From positions 1-64,000 of the forward strand of contig JAKIUC010000002.1 in NCBI GenBank assembly GCA_021647785.1: DNA of 64,000 nt. Direction: 5' to 3'. This document shows, in pieces, positions 2,873-36,768 of the stretch (positions are counted from its first letter, which is position 1; every line of letters begins with the position of its first letter). A program made the translations under genes and the position numbers. The DNA is from Melioribacteraceae bacterium. GTDB taxonomy: Bacteria > Bacteroidota > Ignavibacteria > Ignavibacteriales > Melioribacteraceae. The notes under the pieces are model-generated. The model searched no databases and was not told where the DNA came from. It saw only the letters and a list, made by a program, of their open reading frames with translations.

Positions 2873-3016
2873 AATCGAACACTTCCATCAGGAAATTATC
2901 TAACAGAATGGAATGGAGCAAACAGTAAAAATAGCAGTGTTACTTCATAAATCTATTTTTATGAAATCAGAGTAGCAAGTGAGAGGTTTGTTGGTAAAAT
3001 GATTTTGGTAAAATAG
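2873..3016 (+). pseudogene. Remnant of a T9SS-type C-terminal sorting domain
   Basis: Read in one frame, this stretch gives LPSGNYLTEWNGANSKNSSV, then an in-frame TAA, then IYFYEIRVASERFVGKMILV-K and a stop. The pattern SG.Y...W.G...(S)GIYFY.......KKMILLK is the usual end of type IX secretion cargo (type A sorting domain) in Bacteroidota and Ignavibacteriota. The internal stop sits where a glycine codon is expected. No long open frame leads into it, so only the last 45 or so codons of a former secreted protein survive. The rest of the 375-base gap (2789-3163) holds no other gene. Confidence 0.6.
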
Positions 3017-3122
3017 TTTATCTTATTTGAAATAAATGATTTATAGTGATTTTCTAATGAGTTGAAGATATCTAAATAATTTGCAAATCAAATAAAATAG
3101 TAGTAAATTTGAAGTTCTAATT

Positions 3123-28200: not shown

Positions 28201-28555
28201 ATTTTTAGGTGGATAAAATAAATTACGCATAATATTAAAATACTCTATGAGAAGAAAAAGTCCCTATCTATAACGCCTCTTACTCTCCTTTTGTTATGTC
28301 AAATTTAATTATGTTTTTAATAACTCCGTTAGGAGTTACACTTTACTAGAGAATAAAAAAAAACAAAATGAATAAGAATCCCAGAGGGATTCCATTTTTA
28401 ATAACAAATTGGAATCAAAAAATAATTCAATCCCTCTGGGATTGGGAAATATTTTAATCTTAGTTTCTGCAAAAGTATAATCCCTCTGGGATTATGTGGC
28501 ACTATTACTCATCAATTCTTAAATTACAAATGTAATATTTTATCCACCTAAAAAT
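28201..28555. repeat. Nested palindromic element of about 355 bp (second of its type)
   Basis: The 536-base gap 28143-28678 holds this element and no gene. Perfect 20-base outer arms lie at 28201-28220 and 28536-28555 (ATTTTTAGGTGGATAAAATA and its inverse). Between them are small perfect hairpins: TAACTCC/GGAGTTA (28321-28338), GAATCCC/GGGATTC (28376-28392), and two further copies of AATCCCTCTGGGATT (28429-28443 and 28479-28493). The layout of long outer arms with several short hairpins inside repeats that of 26535-26744, but the sequences differ. No coding region fits. Confidence 0.85.
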
Positions 28556-30730: not shown

Positions 30731-33698
30731 GAAAAATAAAATAAAAGCTCGAATATTATTTCCAGTTGCAATAGCAATATATTTTTTAATTGTTGTGTTC
30801 TATATTGTTACATCACAACTGATGATAATATTAGAAGTTTCTGATGAAGTTCAATTTGTAGATAACGCAATGTTAATAATTTTTGGAATTGGTTTAGCAG
30901 TAAGTTTAATCCTTATAATTTTCATTAATTTTATTTTAGGTCGTGTTGAAAAAGATATTGTTGACTATGAAGATAGATTATTACGTGAAGGAAAACTACA
31001 TGAGATTGAACAAAAAGAGCATATTGAAAAACTATTTGAAGATGAGAAAAAACTAAAACATAGTGAGAAAAAATTAAGATTAGTTTTTGAAAACTCGAAA
31101 GATGTAATTATTTGGGCAAATCCGAAAACAGGAATTATTACTAATTGTAACCTTGCAGCAGAAACATTATTAGAATATAATAGAGATGAAATAATTGGGC
31201 AGCTACAAACATTTCTACATCCAAAAGATGAAAAAGAAAAATACCAAGAACTTTTTAAGAATCATGTTGCTGCTAAGGGGGCTTTGGATGGAGAAGTTAC
31301 AATTGTAACAAAGAGTGGTTTAATTAAATATGTTGATATTTCTGCAACGGTAATTTCTGTGGGAGATGAAGAGATAATTCAAGGGGTATTTCGTGACATT
31401 ACAGAACAGAGGGAAATAGAGAAGTATATGTTTGAAAGTGAGGAACGCTTCCAACAAGTTGCAGAATATTCTGATTCTATTATTTGGGAAGTTAATGAAA
31501 AATTGGAAATTATATATACAAACTCCGTAGCTGAAATGGTATTGGGCTATACCCCAGAAGAATTAATAGGTAATTCTATTTTTATGATTTTCCCAAATTC
31601 AAGAGAAAACTATAGAACGCTTGCAAAACAACGAAACTTGTTAAGGCTAGAAGGTAAATATACAAACTTAGAATATAGAACTGTTGCTAAGGATGGAAAA
31701 ATTGTTTGGATGCGGAGTAGTGGTGGTAATATTTTGAATGATAAAGGAGAGTTTATAGGAGTACGTGGTATTTCTACTGATATAACTGAAGAGAAAAAAA
31801 CAGAAAGAGAGATATTTGAAAGTGAAGAACGTTTTAAACAAATTGCAAGTTCCACTAAATCAATAGTTTGGGAAGTGGATAATAGATTCAAATTTATCTA
31901 TTTAAGTTCTTCTGTCTATAAAATTTTAGGGTATAGTGAAGCAGATGTATTAGGAAAATCTATCTTCGACCATTTTTATAATAGCGAAGAAGTTAATAGA
32001 ATACGTAGAGAAATTATAAAGTCAATAAGCAAAACTGGAAAATTTTCTGATTTAGAATCTAAGTTCTTGCGAAAAGATGGAAAAGTAATTTGGACATCTA
32101 CAAGTGGTTTCATTAAAAGAGATGTAGATAAAACAAAAGTAAAATATATTGGTTCCACAAAAGATATCACTGAAAAAAAAGAAGCAGAAAGAAAAATACT
32201 TGAAGGTGAAGAACGTTTTCTGCAAGTAGCAGATTATTCTAATTCTATTGTTTGGGAAATTAATAATAAAAATGAATATACATACATCAATTCGGTTGTG
32301 GAAAAAATATTAGGATATAGAACTGATGAACTAATCGGGAATAATGGCTATATCCATTTTGCTGATTGTGAAGAGAATAGTAAAGCGTTAAAAATTCAAA
32401 AAGAAATGCTCGAAGCAGAAGGCAAGTATAGCAACTTAGAATTTAAATTGGAAACAAAAGAAGGTAACCCTGTTTGGGTACGTAGTAGTGGTGGTTATTT
32501 AAAAAATGATAAAGGAGAGATTATTGGGAGACGTGGAATATCTACTGATATAACTGAAAACAAGAAAAATATTGAGCTAATAATTAAGGCAAAGATTGAA
32601 GCTGAAAAAGCAGAAAAAAAAATTAGAGCAAGTGAAGAAAAAAACAGAAGCATTTTAGAGGCAATACCCGATATTATATTTATTTTTGATAAAGATGGAG
32701 TTTTTCTCGATTATCACATACGTAGTAATGATAAATTAAATTTTCCGCCAGAAGAGTTTTTAGGAAAAAATATAGAAGCGGTGTTCCCAAAAGAGATTGC
32801 AGAACTTACTAAGAAAAACATTACCAAAACACTCTCTAATAAAGAAATTTGTGTATTCAGGTATTCGTTCCCTATTAGTGATAAAACTATTAATGAAGAA
32901 GCAAGAATGGTTCAGTACGATGATGATAAAGTTCTAACAATGATAAGAGACATTACAGATGTTATTGAAGCTGAAAAGAACTTGATAGAAGCAAAAGAGC
33001 GTGCAGAAAGAGCGGATAGTTTAAAATCAACATTCTTAGCACAAATGTCTCATGAAATACGGACACCAATAAATTCAATTGTTAGTTTATCATCACTAAT
33101 AGAGGAGGTATTAACCGAGCACGCTGATGATGATACTAAAACTTGCTTTAATTTAATTTCAAAAAGTGGTGATAGAATAATTAGGACAACTGATTTGCTC
33201 CTTAATTTATCAGAGATTGAAGCTGGTACGTATGAAATGTTTAAAGAAGATTTCAATTTAGTTGATAGTGTACTTAATAAATTATACAACGAGTATCTAT
33301 CAATTGCTGAAGAGGAAAACTTGAAATTGAAGTTAGATATTAATCTACGAAACCCAATAATCTCTGCCGATTCATATACAGTAGAACAAATTTTTTGCAA
33401 TATAATTAATAATGCAATTAAATATACTACTAAAGGAGAAGTGGTTATTAAGGCATTTGAAAATAGTGAGAAGAAAACTACGGTTGAAATTATTGATACT
33501 GGTATTGGAATTTCAAAAGATTATTTACCAAAAATATTCACTTCGTTTTCACAAGAAATGACAGGATATACAAGAAAATATGAAGGAAATGGGGTTGGTT
33601 TAACACTTGTAAGTGAGTTTTGTAAACTGAATAATGCTACAATTGAAGTTGAAAGTATTAAAGGAGAAGGTTCTACTTTTAGAGTTGTGTTTGAATAA
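30723..33698 (+). CDS. Membrane-bound multi-PAS sensor histidine kinase
   Basis: This 991-residue kinase has two membrane helices near the N-terminus (about 11-33 and 47-70) with no sizeable periplasmic loop. Five successive PAS/PAC units follow (from about 110 to 755), three of them near-identical in pattern (ERF-QVA-YS-SI-WEVN). HisKA (QMSHEIRTPINSI, histidine near 776) and HATPase (DTGIGIS, then GNGVGLTL) complete it. The repeated PAS units suggest internal duplication. It starts with GTG, overlapping the upstream kinase by 8 bases. Its C-terminal catalytic domain closely resembles that of the kinase at 43749-44933. Confidence 0.93.
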   Translation: MNKKNKIKARILFPVAIAIYFLIVVFYIVTSQLMIILEVSDEVQFVDNAMLIIFGIGLAVSLILIIFINFILGRVEKDIVDYEDRLLREGKLHEIEQKEHIEKLFEDEKKLKHSEKKLRLVFENSKDVIIWANPKTGIITNCNLAAETLLEYNRDEIIGQLQTFLHPKDEKEKYQELFKNHVAAKGALDGEVTIVTKSGLIKYVDISATVISVGDEEIIQGVFRDITEQREIEKYMFESEERFQQVAEYSDSIIWEVNEKLEIIYTNSVAEMVLGYTPEELIGNSIFMIFPNSRENYRTLAKQRNLLRLEGKYTNLEYRTVAKDGKIVWMRSSGGNILNDKGEFIGVRGISTDITEEKKTEREIFESEERFKQIASSTKSIVWEVDNRFKFIYLSSSVYKILGYSEADVLGKSIFDHFYNSEEVNRIRREIIKSISKTGKFSDLESKFLRKDGKVIWTSTSGFIKRDVDKTKVKYIGSTKDITEKKEAERKILEGEERFLQVADYSNSIVWEINNKNEYTYINSVVEKILGYRTDELIGNNGYIHFADCEENSKALKIQKEMLEAEGKYSNLEFKLETKEGNPVWVRSSGGYLKNDKGEIIGRRGISTDITENKKNIELIIKAKIEAEKAEKKIRASEEKNRSILEAIPDIIFIFDKDGVFLDYHIRSNDKLNFPPEEFLGKNIEAVFPKEIAELTKKNITKTLSNKEICVFRYSFPISDKTINEEARMVQYDDDKVLTMIRDITDVIEAEKNLIEAKERAERADSLKSTFLAQMSHEIRTPINSIVSLSSLIEEVLTEHADDDTKTCFNLISKSGDRIIRTTDLLLNLSEIEAGTYEMFKEDFNLVDSVLNKLYNEYLSIAEEENLKLKLDINLRNPIISADSYTVEQIFCNIINNAIKYTTKGEVVIKAFENSEKKTTVEIIDTGIGISKDYLPKIFTSFSQEMTGYTRKYEGNGVGLTLVSEFCKLNNATIEVESIKGEGSTFRVVFE

Positions 33699-33725
33699 TC
33701 AGTAGTAATAAGTAATTAGTGTTAT

Positions 33726-33732
33726 GTTAGGC
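33726..33732 (+). other. Integron-type core site GTTAGGC at the left end of the R-M cassette
   Basis: GTTAGGC fits the integron core consensus GTTRRRY exactly and lies 28 bases after a kinase stop codon. Its extension TTAGGCAA is the exact inverse of TTGCCTAA inside the attC-like site at the right end. In integron cassettes the start of a cassette pairs with the 5' core box of that cassette's own attC in just this way. Seven bases alone would be weak; the pairing is what gives the call weight. Confidence 0.5.
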
Positions 33733-33788
33733 AACATTACTAATTCATTCTCTCACTAATATTTTTTCATTAATAAAATTAGATTTCA

Positions 33789-33853
33789 TTTGTTTTTATT
33801 AGAAGAATACAATATATTTGGACAATATTTGTCAAAATCATTTATGTCCAAAT
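33789..33853 (+). promoter_or_regulatory. Promoter and operator of the R-M operon
   Basis: TTTG at 33789-33792 and TATATTTG at 33813-33820 fit the Bacteroidetes -33 (TTTG) and -7 (TAnnTTTG) elements with 20 bases between. Just downstream, GACAA-TAT-TTGTC (33821-33833) is a perfect palindrome. A wider pair, ATTTGGACA (33816-33824) and TGTCCAAAT (33845-33853), is also exact, its right arm covering the start codon. This is where a C-protein-like controller would bind its own promoter. Confidence 0.65.
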
Positions 33854-34169
33854 GCAAACTATAGGAAAACAAATACGAAAGCTACGTGAGGATAGCGGAT
33901 TACCACTTAGAAAAATAGCAGCTATACTTGATATTGATCAATCTATCCTAAGTAAAATTGAAAGAGGTGAAAGGAAAGCAACAAAAAAGCAAATCATTCA
34001 AATTGCTAAAATATTTAATGCTGATAAAAAAGAATTACTCATAAATTATTTTAGCGACAAAGTGATTTATGAATTAATAAATGAGGATATAGCCGTTGAT
34101 GTATTAAAAGTAGCAGAAAAGAAGATAAAATATTTAAATCAAAATCAAAATCAAAATCAAAATGTTTGA
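33852..34169 (+). CDS. XRE-family controller protein of the R-M operon
   Basis: This 105-residue protein has an N-terminal Cro/C1-type helix-turn-helix (about 5-60, with LPLRKIAAILDIDQSILSKI). A short helical part and a C-terminal tail of alternating N and Q residues encoded by a hexanucleotide repeat follow. Its place upstream of a methyltransferase and an endonuclease, with a palindromic operator on its own promoter, suggests a C-protein-like regulator timing restriction after modification. An ATG at 33844 is in another frame and stops at once, so 33852 is the start. Its end overlaps the methyltransferase by 8 bases. Confidence 0.88.
   Translation: MQTIGKQIRKLREDSGLPLRKIAAILDIDQSILSKIERGERKATKKQIIQIAKIFNADKKELLINYFSDKVIYELINEDIAVDVLKVAEKKIKYLNQNQNQNQNV
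34140..34163 (+). repeat. CAAAAT hexamer repeat at the controller/methyltransferase junction
   Basis: Four tandem copies of CAAAAT encode the N-Q tail of the controller, and the methyltransferase ATG (34162) begins in the last copy. Changes by whole units keep the controller frame but alter its tail length. Confidence 0.85.
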
Positions 34170-35748
34170 TACAAATTCAATACAACCCACTCATTATGAA
34201 TTGCCTAGTTTTTTTGCTGACCGTCTTGGCGAAATATATACTGCTTCGGTAACGCAACAACACAAAAAGGAAAACGGACAGTTCTTTACTCCAGTAGAGA
34301 TAGCTTTATTTATGGCATCACTTTCAGAATTTAATGGTAATTTTGTTAGAATTTTGGATCCCGGTTCTGGAACATCTATATTATCCTGTGCTCTGATTGA
34401 GAAAATAATAAATAACAATAAATATTTAAAATATATTGAATTGGTTATTTATGAAACGGATACTGAACTTATTCCAATTTTGAAAAAATCGCTAAAGTAT
34501 CTGAAAAATTGGGTGGAAAATAAAAACGTTGAAATTGTAATTACATTTTACTCATCTGATTTTGTATTACATAATTCAGATGCTTTAAAAGAAACTCCTG
34601 ATTTGTTTACCAAACAAATAAATTTATTTGATGTTGTTATTTCTAATCCTCCATATTTTAAACTATCAATTGAAGATGAAAGAGCAATTGCAGCAAAAAT
34701 TGTAGTAAATGGACATCCGAATATTTATTCTATTTTTATGGCTCTATCAGCAAAATTGCTGAAAGAAGATGGCGAATTAATATTTATTACTCCTAGAAGT
34801 TATGCATCTGGTTCTTACTTTAGAGCTTTTAGAGAATATTTTTTTAATATTATTGACTTAGATAAAGCTCACTTATTTGTTTCTCGCAAAGAAGCATTCA
34901 ACCGCGATAAAGTTCTTCAGGAAGTAGTTATAATTAAAGGAACAAAAAGAAATATTGCTGAACCATTTGTTGAGGTTTCATCTTCAAGTGGATTAAACGA
35001 TTTAGCTACACCAAAAATAAAAATTTTCCCTAAAAATGATATAGTCAATGTAGAATCAAAGGAGAAAGTATTATATCTACCTACATCAAATGAGGAAGAA
35101 GTAATTCTCAATATTTTTCAATCATGGTCAGGAAATCTAAATAAATATGACATCAAGATTTCAACAGGTCCTGTCGTTTCTTTTCGTTCGTGGGATAAAA
35201 TTATTGAGAATTATGAAGATGGAGCAAAACAAACTGCCCCTTTATTTTGGTTGCATAATGTTAAACAAATGATACTGGAATGGCCGATTGAAAACAAAAA
35301 AAAAGGACAGTATATTATAATAGATAGAAAATCAGAAACTATTCTAATTCCTAATAAAAACTATATTTTTTTAAGACGTTTCAGTAGCAAAGATGATAAG
35401 AACCGATTAATTGCTGCTCCATACTTCAGCAATTTTATAAGGTCGGATTTTATTGGAGTTGAAAACAAATTAAACTATATCTATCGTCAAAACGGATATT
35501 TGGAACGAAACGAAATTGTTGGTTTATGTACTTTACTAAATAGCACTCTTTTTGATGCTTTTTTTAGAATTTTTAATGGCAATGTAAATGTTAGTGCAAC
35601 TGAATTACGAGATATGCCATTACCTCCATTAGAAATAATTCATGAGATTGGAAATACAATAATTTTATCAAACAATTATTCTGTAGAAAATGTAAATTTA
35701 ATAGTAAATAAATATTTTGAACCGGTTAAAAATTATGAAGAAAATTGA
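34162..35748 (+). CDS. Type II N6-adenine DNA methyltransferase
   Basis: This 528-residue enzyme transfers methyl groups from S-adenosylmethionine to adenine in DNA. It shows the Eco57I/N6_Mtase pattern: KKENGQFFTPVEIALFMASL near residue 35, and SAM-binding ILDPGSGTSILSCALIEKI near residue 66 (motif I). The catalytic motif IV follows as FDVVISNPPYFKL near residue 160. The C-terminal half is a likely target-recognition domain. It lies between a controller and a BsuBI/PstI-like endonuclease and so should protect that enzyme's site. Adenine as the target follows from NPPY; the recognition site is not readable. Confidence 0.92.
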   Translation: MFDTNSIQPTHYELPSFFADRLGEIYTASVTQQHKKENGQFFTPVEIALFMASLSEFNGNFVRILDPGSGTSILSCALIEKIINNNKYLKYIELVIYETDTELIPILKKSLKYLKNWVENKNVEIVITFYSSDFVLHNSDALKETPDLFTKQINLFDVVISNPPYFKLSIEDERAIAAKIVVNGHPNIYSIFMALSAKLLKEDGELIFITPRSYASGSYFRAFREYFFNIIDLDKAHLFVSRKEAFNRDKVLQEVVIIKGTKRNIAEPFVEVSSSSGLNDLATPKIKIFPKNDIVNVESKEKVLYLPTSNEEEVILNIFQSWSGNLNKYDIKISTGPVVSFRSWDKIIENYEDGAKQTAPLFWLHNVKQMILEWPIENKKKGQYIIIDRKSETILIPNKNYIFLRRFSSKDDKNRLIAAPYFSNFIRSDFIGVENKLNYIYRQNGYLERNEIVGLCTLLNSTLFDAFFRIFNGNVNVSATELRDMPLPPLEIIHEIGNTIILSNNYSVENVNLIVNKYFEPVKNYEEN

Positions 35749-36694
35749 AGATGCGAAAAAAATCTTGGAAGAATTAGGTCTTCCTAGAAAACAACAAAAC
35801 GAACGTTCAGCATTAACTTTATTGGCTTTATGTAATCTTAAAAAGAATAGTAAATGGAGTAATGCAAAGGCTGTTAGCATGTCTGTAATGGGTAATAAAG
35901 AAAATGCTAAGTATGAAGGTATAATGCGTTTTATTGCTGAGCATTACAATAAACAATATGCAGAGAATTCAAGAGAGACATTTAGAAGACAAACTCTTCA
36001 TCAATTTGTTCAAGCTGGTATTGTTAATCATAATCCGGAAAATCCTAACTTACCTACGAATAGCAAGGATAATCATTATCGTTTATCGCATGAAGCATTA
36101 AAAGTAATAAAAACATTTGGTTCGAAAAAATGGGAAAAGGAAATCCAACATTTTATAGAAGATGTTGGAATACTTAGAGAAAAATATAATAAGAAACGTG
36201 AACAAAGGAAAATCCCTTTAGTATTAAAAGATGGGACAAAACTTAGTTTTTCACCAGGTAAACATAATGAAGTACAGATTTCAATTATTGAAGAATTTGC
36301 TCCTCGTTTTGCACCTGGAAGCGTTTTGCTATATGTTGGAGATACAGTGAAAAAGAACCTTTATTTGGATAAAACCGGGCTTGAAAAGCTGAATGTTCCT
36401 ATTAACGAACACAGTAAATTACCAGATGTTGTCTTGTTTGACAGAAAACGCAATTGGTTATTTCTTGTTGAAGCAGTTACTTCTCACGGGCCTGTTTCTC
36501 CCAAAAGAATTGTTGAAATGGAAAAGCTATTAAAAAAATGCAAATCAGGAAAAATTTATGTTACAGCTTTTCCAGACTTCAAAGAATTCAAAAAGCATAC
36601 ACCTGAAATTGCATGGGAAACAGAAGTATGGGTTGTGGATTTTCCTGATCACATGATACATTTTAATGGTGATAAGTTTTTAGGACCAAGGTAA
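35735..36694 (+). CDS. BsuBI/PstI-like type II restriction endonuclease
   Basis: This endonuclease of about 319 residues has an N-terminal helical domain (NERSALTLLALCNL, then NAKYEGIMRFIAEHY and RRQTLHQFVQAGIV). The C-terminal catalytic domain has VLLYVGDTVKKNLYLDK, PDVVLFDRKRNWLFLVEAVT and SHGPVSPKRIVEM. This is the BsuBI/PstI family arrangement, whose known members cut CTGCAG. I chose the ATG at 35735 (MKKIEDAKK), overlapping the methyltransferase by 14 bases, over a TTG at 35717. The gene is intact. Whether it recognises CTGCAG is unknown; that hexamer is not rare in this window. Confidence 0.9.
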   Translation: MKKIEDAKKILEELGLPRKQQNERSALTLLALCNLKKNSKWSNAKAVSMSVMGNKENAKYEGIMRFIAEHYNKQYAENSRETFRRQTLHQFVQAGIVNHNPENPNLPTNSKDNHYRLSHEALKVIKTFGSKKWEKEIQHFIEDVGILREKYNKKREQRKIPLVLKDGTKLSFSPGKHNEVQISIIEEFAPRFAPGSVLLYVGDTVKKNLYLDKTGLEKLNVPINEHSKLPDVVLFDRKRNWLFLVEAVTSHGPVSPKRIVEMEKLLKKCKSGKIYVTAFPDFKEFKKHTPEIAWETEVWVVDFPDHMIHFNGDKFLGPR

Positions 36695-36704
36695 AACAAC
36701 GATT

Positions 36705-36768
36705 GCCTAATAAAAGCTATAAGCAATCCCGAAAAGCATCGGAACTGCTTATAGCAAGATTGTTAGAA
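36705..36768 (+). other. attC-like recombination site
   Basis: The site lies 10 bases after the endonuclease stop. It has GCCTAAT (36705-36711, one base off the RYYYAAC core) and a 4-base spacer. Then come GCTATAAGCA (36716-36725) with its exact inverse TGCTTATAGC (36746-36755), a 6-base spacer and GTTAGAA (36762-36768; last base off GTTRRRY). Inside, CCGA/TCGG (36729-36742) forms a terminal hairpin. Unpaired spacers, a paired inner box and a variable tip match the layout of folded attC sites; the length of 64 bases is also in range. Confidence 0.55.

Follow-up and report, generated by a model that had tools for sequence, protein, structure and literature searches.

The window, a stretch of 64,000 nucleotides (G000:C32:1-64000) from a genome of 4.25 Mb in 99 contigs, probably contains a gene cassette that belongs to an integron-like system whose integrase lacks the I2 helix, inserted at a secondary site. 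Positions 33727-36762 comprise a complete type II restriction-modification (R-M) operon (Xre control gene, N6-MTase and BsuBI-type REase) and, behind it, an attC-type hairpin. This unit was probably released or delivered in circular form, with TTGCCTAAT...hairpin...G / TTAGGCAA as the joint site, and recombination then placed it at a secondary G / TT of the chromosome that lies between two sensor genes. An I2-less XerA-like tyrosine recombinase, divergent beside an attI-like site termed LE, would belong to an integron-like system throughout the bacterial family. In this system, cassettes of 0.5-5 kb, mostly R-M or other defense genes with their own 5' regions, would enter the G / TT of dispersed LE copies and sometimes insert elsewhere. 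We infer that this recombinase carries out the reaction and moved the window copy, with the bottom strand as the substrate and two G.T wobbles that would mark strand and register. Integrons with defense genes are already known, as are lone attC sites. We lean, if only slightly, toward the broader reading of a second kind of integron, in which an I2-less XerA-type integrase folds bottom-strand attC hairpins marked by two G.T wobbles and inserts mainly whole R-M or defense operons at dispersed attI-like sites.

The cassette frame is directly visible in the window. GTTAGGC occupies positions 33726-33732, downstream of a kinase stop at 33698, and three genes follow in one direction on the forward strand. 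They encode an Xre-type helix-turn-helix regulator of 105 aa (33852-34169; HTH_3 3e-10), a likely control protein whose conserved counterparts head nine related operons; an N6-adenine DNA methyltransferase of the Eco57I type, 528 aa (34162-35748; Eco57I 3.3e-16, PADLOC MTase_II 3.8e-112); and a BsuBI/PstI-family restriction endonuclease, 319 aa from its ATG (35735-36694; PF06616 1.6e-60, PF17728 1.4e-48, PADLOC REase_II 4.8e-114). With MTase and BsuBI/PstI REase domains in one operon, the genes form a type II R-M system of the BsuBI/PstI kind. The right end reads GCCTAAT (36705-36711), AAAA, GCTATAAGCA...TGCTTATAGC (36716-36755), AAGATT and GTTAGAA (36762-36768). All motifs given for this region by the first-pass annotation were confirmed in the sequence. 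The complete attC-type recombination site (36705-36768, forward strand) belongs to a family that we designate A, and scores 72.9 bits (E 1.4e-15) with our own model, which had this copy in its training set. It comprises the inner core R'' (TTGCCTAAT, 36703-36711), the L'' arm (36716-36732), the L' arm pairing with it (36739-36755) and the outer core R' (G / TTAGAA, 36762-36768), so that all four boxes, the outer-core GTT and a folded stem are present. At their final letter on either side, the cores (GCCTAAT, GTTAGAA) deviate from the RYYYAAC/GTTRRRY pattern cited by the annotation. An Rfam search of the region returned nothing credible, with one sub-threshold miRNA hit.

The two ends of the 3,036-bp cassette, which begins at its G / TT and includes the first base of GTTAGAA (33727-36762), are related to each other in the manner expected for cassettes. 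The left crossover point falls at 33726-33727, G being position 33726, and the cassette starts with TTAGGCAAC at 33727. This start, G / TTAGGCAA, and the inner core of the end hairpin, TTGCCTAA, are exact inverses of each other. Among 157 GTTs in the 9 kb upstream, position 33726 offers the best inverse match to the inner core (8 bases), with the GTT at 28328 as the runner-up, which upholds the earlier claim of inversion. Since the gap at 33699-33851 holds only three GTTs, the chance of a 6-base match within it is about 7e-4. The right crossover point lies in R', after which the flank picks up again at TTAGAAC. A free circle would be expected to carry the joint TTGCCTAAT-hairpin-GTTAGGCAA, and an empty chromosome would be expected to read ...GTGTTATG / TTAGAAC..., that is, GTGTTATG / TTAGAACATTG without the operon. 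Such an empty site was not found in four congeners, which lack a clear ortholog of the downstream gene; the G / TT crossover proposed earlier was seen at another locus of the same system, described below. No LE is present on the left side of the window cassette, and we read it as a probable secondary-site insertion, for which IntI provides a precedent (PMC2426708, PMC12444791). By default, a CALIN comprises at least two attC sites without an integrase (PMC9024848); the window locus has a single attC, as against three at contig C95. The cassette lies within a series of sensor kinase genes that are very large and of the multi-PAS kind (window:27000-44000).

The endonuclease has relatives, up to 82% identical, in 20 MAGs/genomes of Bacteroidota, Ignavibacteria and others, and plasmids yielded only REase relatives below 60%. 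The attC-A hairpin is absent from the related R-M operon in all 20 MAGs/genomes, indicating that it is not part of the operon. The first-pass annotation had regarded relatives with the same genes and different ends as an argument against a cassette. Such relatives exist, yet they appear to show only the capture of an ordinary R-M operon as a cassette, not an accidental frame.

A DNA search with the 91-base window end revealed several strong relatives in the same genome, including one at C95:8530 with an 88% match over 65 bases (E 2e-16). Nine copies were aligned and assigned an attC-type structure, and the stem of the resulting model covaries. The model search places nine attC-A sites in the genome at E<=1.3e-5, and the next distinct place scores E 1.3. 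In four of these nine sites, the variable tip is about 80 bases long. The genes ahead of these sites are mostly R-M or other defense operons: a DpnII-like REase with two MTases at C91, a CfrBI-type R-M system at C52, an MTase with a DUF2326 gene at C60, a type I remnant at C23 and, at C95, a tandem run of three sites behind type I R-M, ABC-3C-like and AbiE genes. C65 is the exception. The start/core inversion recurs at C91, C60, one C95 cassette, C87, C58 and C16, and C52 shows 12 of 14 matching positions as judged by eye. The proposal of a lone cassette-type element is thus borne out by a start inverse to its own attC core and by homologous attC sites that end other defense cassettes in this and related genomes. 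For C23, the first match (L039:14620) falls within an hsdM/hsdS fusion, leaving the start unsettled. This fusion (L039:13675-14781, reverse strand) joins the hsdM start to hsdS, apparently as the result of a deletion inside a type I R-M cassette. An IUPAC core search of the genome was uninformative, the control pattern being as frequent as the real one. In viral contigs, the attC-A pattern was absent and one distant recombinase was the only hit. The gene before the C65 attC (L040:6237-7331) encodes a member of a membrane protein family of unknown function, which also occurs in the L281 cassette at LE in G033.

Comparison of 21 attC hairpins offers a greater level of detail about their structure. 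All stems are continuous, with no bulges or extrahelical bases. Away from two positions, Watson-Crick pairing reaches 91.8%, against 52.6% for shuffled sequences (maximum 59.9%). A.C mismatches occupy these two places, five bases apart, in 17/21 and 21/21 hairpins and are found elsewhere in 3/294 cases; as the A.C pairs were used to fix the register, the counts at the anchors arise partly by construction, and the rarity elsewhere does not. On the bottom strand, the same positions are G.T wobbles. The window stem has 17 bp with two mismatches; it keeps the second A.C mismatch (A36726 opposite C36745) and has lost the first. Folded as single-stranded DNA, its bottom strand reaches -12.8 kcal/mol (shuffle z -5.0; 0/200 shuffles as good) and its top strand -11.6 kcal/mol.

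The left flanks of several cassettes share LE, an element of 45-86 bp with the consensus ...YAACATATAGTCCCGATATATACAATGGGTGTATTGGGATG / TT. The same element adjoins the upstream side of a tyrosine recombinase gene at C39, in divergent orientation; relatives of this recombinase are 68-77% identical. In all seven loci having upstream sequence (six relatives), LE adjoins the XerA-like recombinase and is followed by G / TT and new sequence. With an LE model, about 70 copies were identified, distributed over 22 of the 79 family genomes. Across these 79 genomes, whose relatedness makes the p-values optimistic, LE tracks the XerA-like recombinase (10/11 genomes, p 4e-6) and shows no association with IntI (p 0.44), and attC-A is similarly associated with LE (p 3e-4) but not with IntI (p 0.83). 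Here a divergent recombinase, an adjoining attI-like site and cassettes ending in attC together make up an integron-like platform, and in G074 the platform cassette is closed by attC-A at the predicted place (E 0.0024). Our first reading of LE, as the attC of a preceding cassette, was dropped as the main one on the grounds that three species retain LE at a shared locus where their cassettes differ; the LE layout of YAAC, hairpin and GTT is still attC-like. Of 29 IntI loci, only that of G009 (L182, near 3874, reverse strand) has an LE-like copy in the vicinity of its canonical intI gene.

To evaluate the cassette rule, we took the bases after G / TT at 45 LE loci and sought their inverse downstream, with starts swapped between loci as the control. 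An inverse core (run of at least 8) was present at 28 of the 45 loci, as compared to 6.5% of swapped controls, and an inverse core followed by a hairpin and GTT at proper spacing at 22 of the 45, as compared to 2%. The predicted core is missing at about one third of the loci. The attC sites found here are mostly about 117 bases long, and cassettes with a found end span 0.5-5 kb; a three-gene cassette of 3 kb is hence of usual size in this system, contrary to the earlier remark that it would be unusually large. The cassettes contain R-M, Zorya-like, CD-NTase, GmrSD-like, Fic and nuclease genes, along with some unrelated genes, where MTases, ZorA and the cyclase are PADLOC hits and some of the other labels represent our own reading of the sequences.

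Junctions between related genomes locate the crossover. On the 3' side of an acyl-CoA dehydrogenase gene, this genome, G002 and G003 share 81-83% identity as far as the G / TT (to within 1 bp), after which the sequences differ. G002 and G003 retain LE at this locus with different cassettes. In G004, LE and cassette are both absent, and the sequence joins directly to the gene that here follows the attC. AbiE cassettes of G074 and G078, which have no LE, are 84% identical; their homology begins at G / TT within one base, and their flanks differ. In G074, a 143-bp direct repeat (82%) lies on either side of the AbiE cassette (L143, reverse).

These data bear on other accounts of the window locus. 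The hairpin might be a terminator or a short mobile repeat behind R-M genes, with the start/core inversion arising by chance; a bottom-strand terminator-like pattern was indeed scored at 36755-36716, and the lack of the hairpin in the 20 related operons would suit such an addition. However, a terminator would point the wrong way for the operon, the cores are conserved with GTT on the outer side, and the homology of the G074 and G078 cassettes starts at G / TT. The same inversion rule holds at many independent loci relative to controls, and the 45-locus comparison refutes chance as a general account, leaving this explanation very little prospect of being correct. Highly improbable, too, is a transposon-like element that moves LE, cassette and attC in one piece, with LE and attC as its ends, and whose window copy has lost LE. 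The dispersal of LE and its joint absence with the cassette in G004 would fit such an element, but the different cassettes behind the retained LE of G002 and G003 imply that the cassette moves separately from LE, and neither the LE-less window and AbiE copies nor the tandem attC sites at C95 are expected from it.

A canonical integron cassette, moved by this genome's own IntI or that of a relative, with the XerA-like gene and LE as unrelated neighbors, deserves more attention, although we judge it rather unlikely. A true IntI with the patch is encoded at C95:103130 (TIGR02249, 390 bits), IntI occurs in 33/79 family genomes, and its use of secondary sites is documented in the work cited above. 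However, attC-A was not found near the C95 intI or in the fetched flanks of 29 IntI loci, and neither attC-A nor LE follows IntI across the family. At the thresholds used, G032, G033 and G074 carry attC-A and the XerA-like gene without IntI. The stems also lack the two or three extrahelical bases of canonical attC sites (PMC2727003), on which the I2 helix docks (PMC2727003, PMC7790495). The LE-linked recombinase, in turn, lacks the IntI patch (I2 helix), seen as a 38-column gap in the alignment; it and IntI fall into separate clades (100/100 each), its TIGR02249 scores of 116-140 bits do not reach the cut-off of 265 bits, and its closest match in model and structure-library searches is XerA (NF040815, 166 bits; 5hxy, E 2.7e-25). 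Neither recombinase therefore provides a canonical integron here, the IntI being without a nearby attC-A and the LE-side enzyme without the patch. The I2-less enzyme and the attC sites without extrahelical bases form a coherent pair, and the G.T wobbles may take over the role of the extrahelical bases. The first reading is partly supported; what calls for revision is the matching system, which is probably not a canonical IntI integron but one of an I2-less XerA-type integrase with attC hairpins devoid of extrahelical bases.

The genome search for intI and further attC sites that the first-pass annotation had suggested thus yielded nine attC-A sites and two integrase genes. Both genes, the C95 intI and the C39 recombinase, are frameshifted, and intact copies exist in relatives. 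Its remark that no integrase lies nearby applies to the surroundings of the cassette and not to the genome, which has these two interrupted genes elsewhere. As both are now interrupted, the cassette is probably stranded, and the present state of the system in this genome may be a relict. A near-identical 19-base palindromic insert interrupts both integrases (CGTAGGGATCCCTATGGGA / CGTAGCCATCCCTTTGGGA; L017:11983-12001 in the C95 intI, L018:16049, reverse strand, in the C39 gene). One further similar place was present in 610 kb, and the insert could be coincidental, could represent a small mobile repeat or could have some significance.

The window cassette and its relatives resemble known lone-attC integron cassettes in having gene(s) with a 3' attC, a G / TT start inverse to their own R'', a G / TT crossover, which is probable for the window copy, YAAY/GTT cores, mobile units in different places and, in the window, a probable secondary-site insertion of the kind known for IntI. 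They differ in that large multi-gene cassettes are common here and scattered singly rather than in one array, and in the two conserved A.C mismatches in stems without extrahelical bases. Like IntI (TIGR02249; IntI4 structure 2a3v), the linked recombinase is a tyrosine recombinase divergent beside an attI-like site, with cassettes at G / TT; unlike IntI, it has no I2 patch, belongs to a separate clade and falls under the TIGR02249 cut-off. XerA-type enzymes (NF040815; 5hxy, 4a8e) are closest by sequence, but the enzyme here lies beside LE and cassettes, in only some genomes. Defense cassettes of Vibrio and mobile integrons depend on canonical IntI, are mostly small and single-gene, and reside in one array, whereas here whole R-M, Zorya-like and CBASS-like operons occupy dispersed cassettes. 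Storage of anti-phage systems as cassettes in Vibrio and mobile integrons is reported by Darracq, Getz and Kieffer 2025, as cited in PMC12444791. As in other mobile R-M systems (PMC4176335), the operon is mobile cargo; the carrier, in contrast, is an attC cassette.

XerA functions in chromosome dimer resolution, and the I2 insertion is described as 'not fully conserved' in the integron-like subgroup of tyrosine recombinases, yet essential for integron function (PMC8138268). On the accepted view, integrons derive from a Xer-like recombinase by gain of the I2 helix, through which extrahelical bases are read and single-strand capture of cassettes becomes possible; the absence of intermediates has been pointed out (PMC7790495). 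No integron-type system with an I2-less integrase appeared in the literature searched, a scope that left out subscription journals and preprints. If our reading is true, a natural I2-less cassette system with matching attC sites would make the question of integron origin directly testable, integron searches relying on the IntI patch would miss a defense-gene capture system in this family, and whole R-M operons would have a carrier in the attC cassette.

A mini-cassette that contains no gene, GTTCGAGTCAATC...GATTGACTCGAAC with its own GC-rich attC, was also detected (L036:11680-11855, L041:1-120 and 3010-3060, L138:5253). It recurs behind attC sites, behind one LE and at a contig end.
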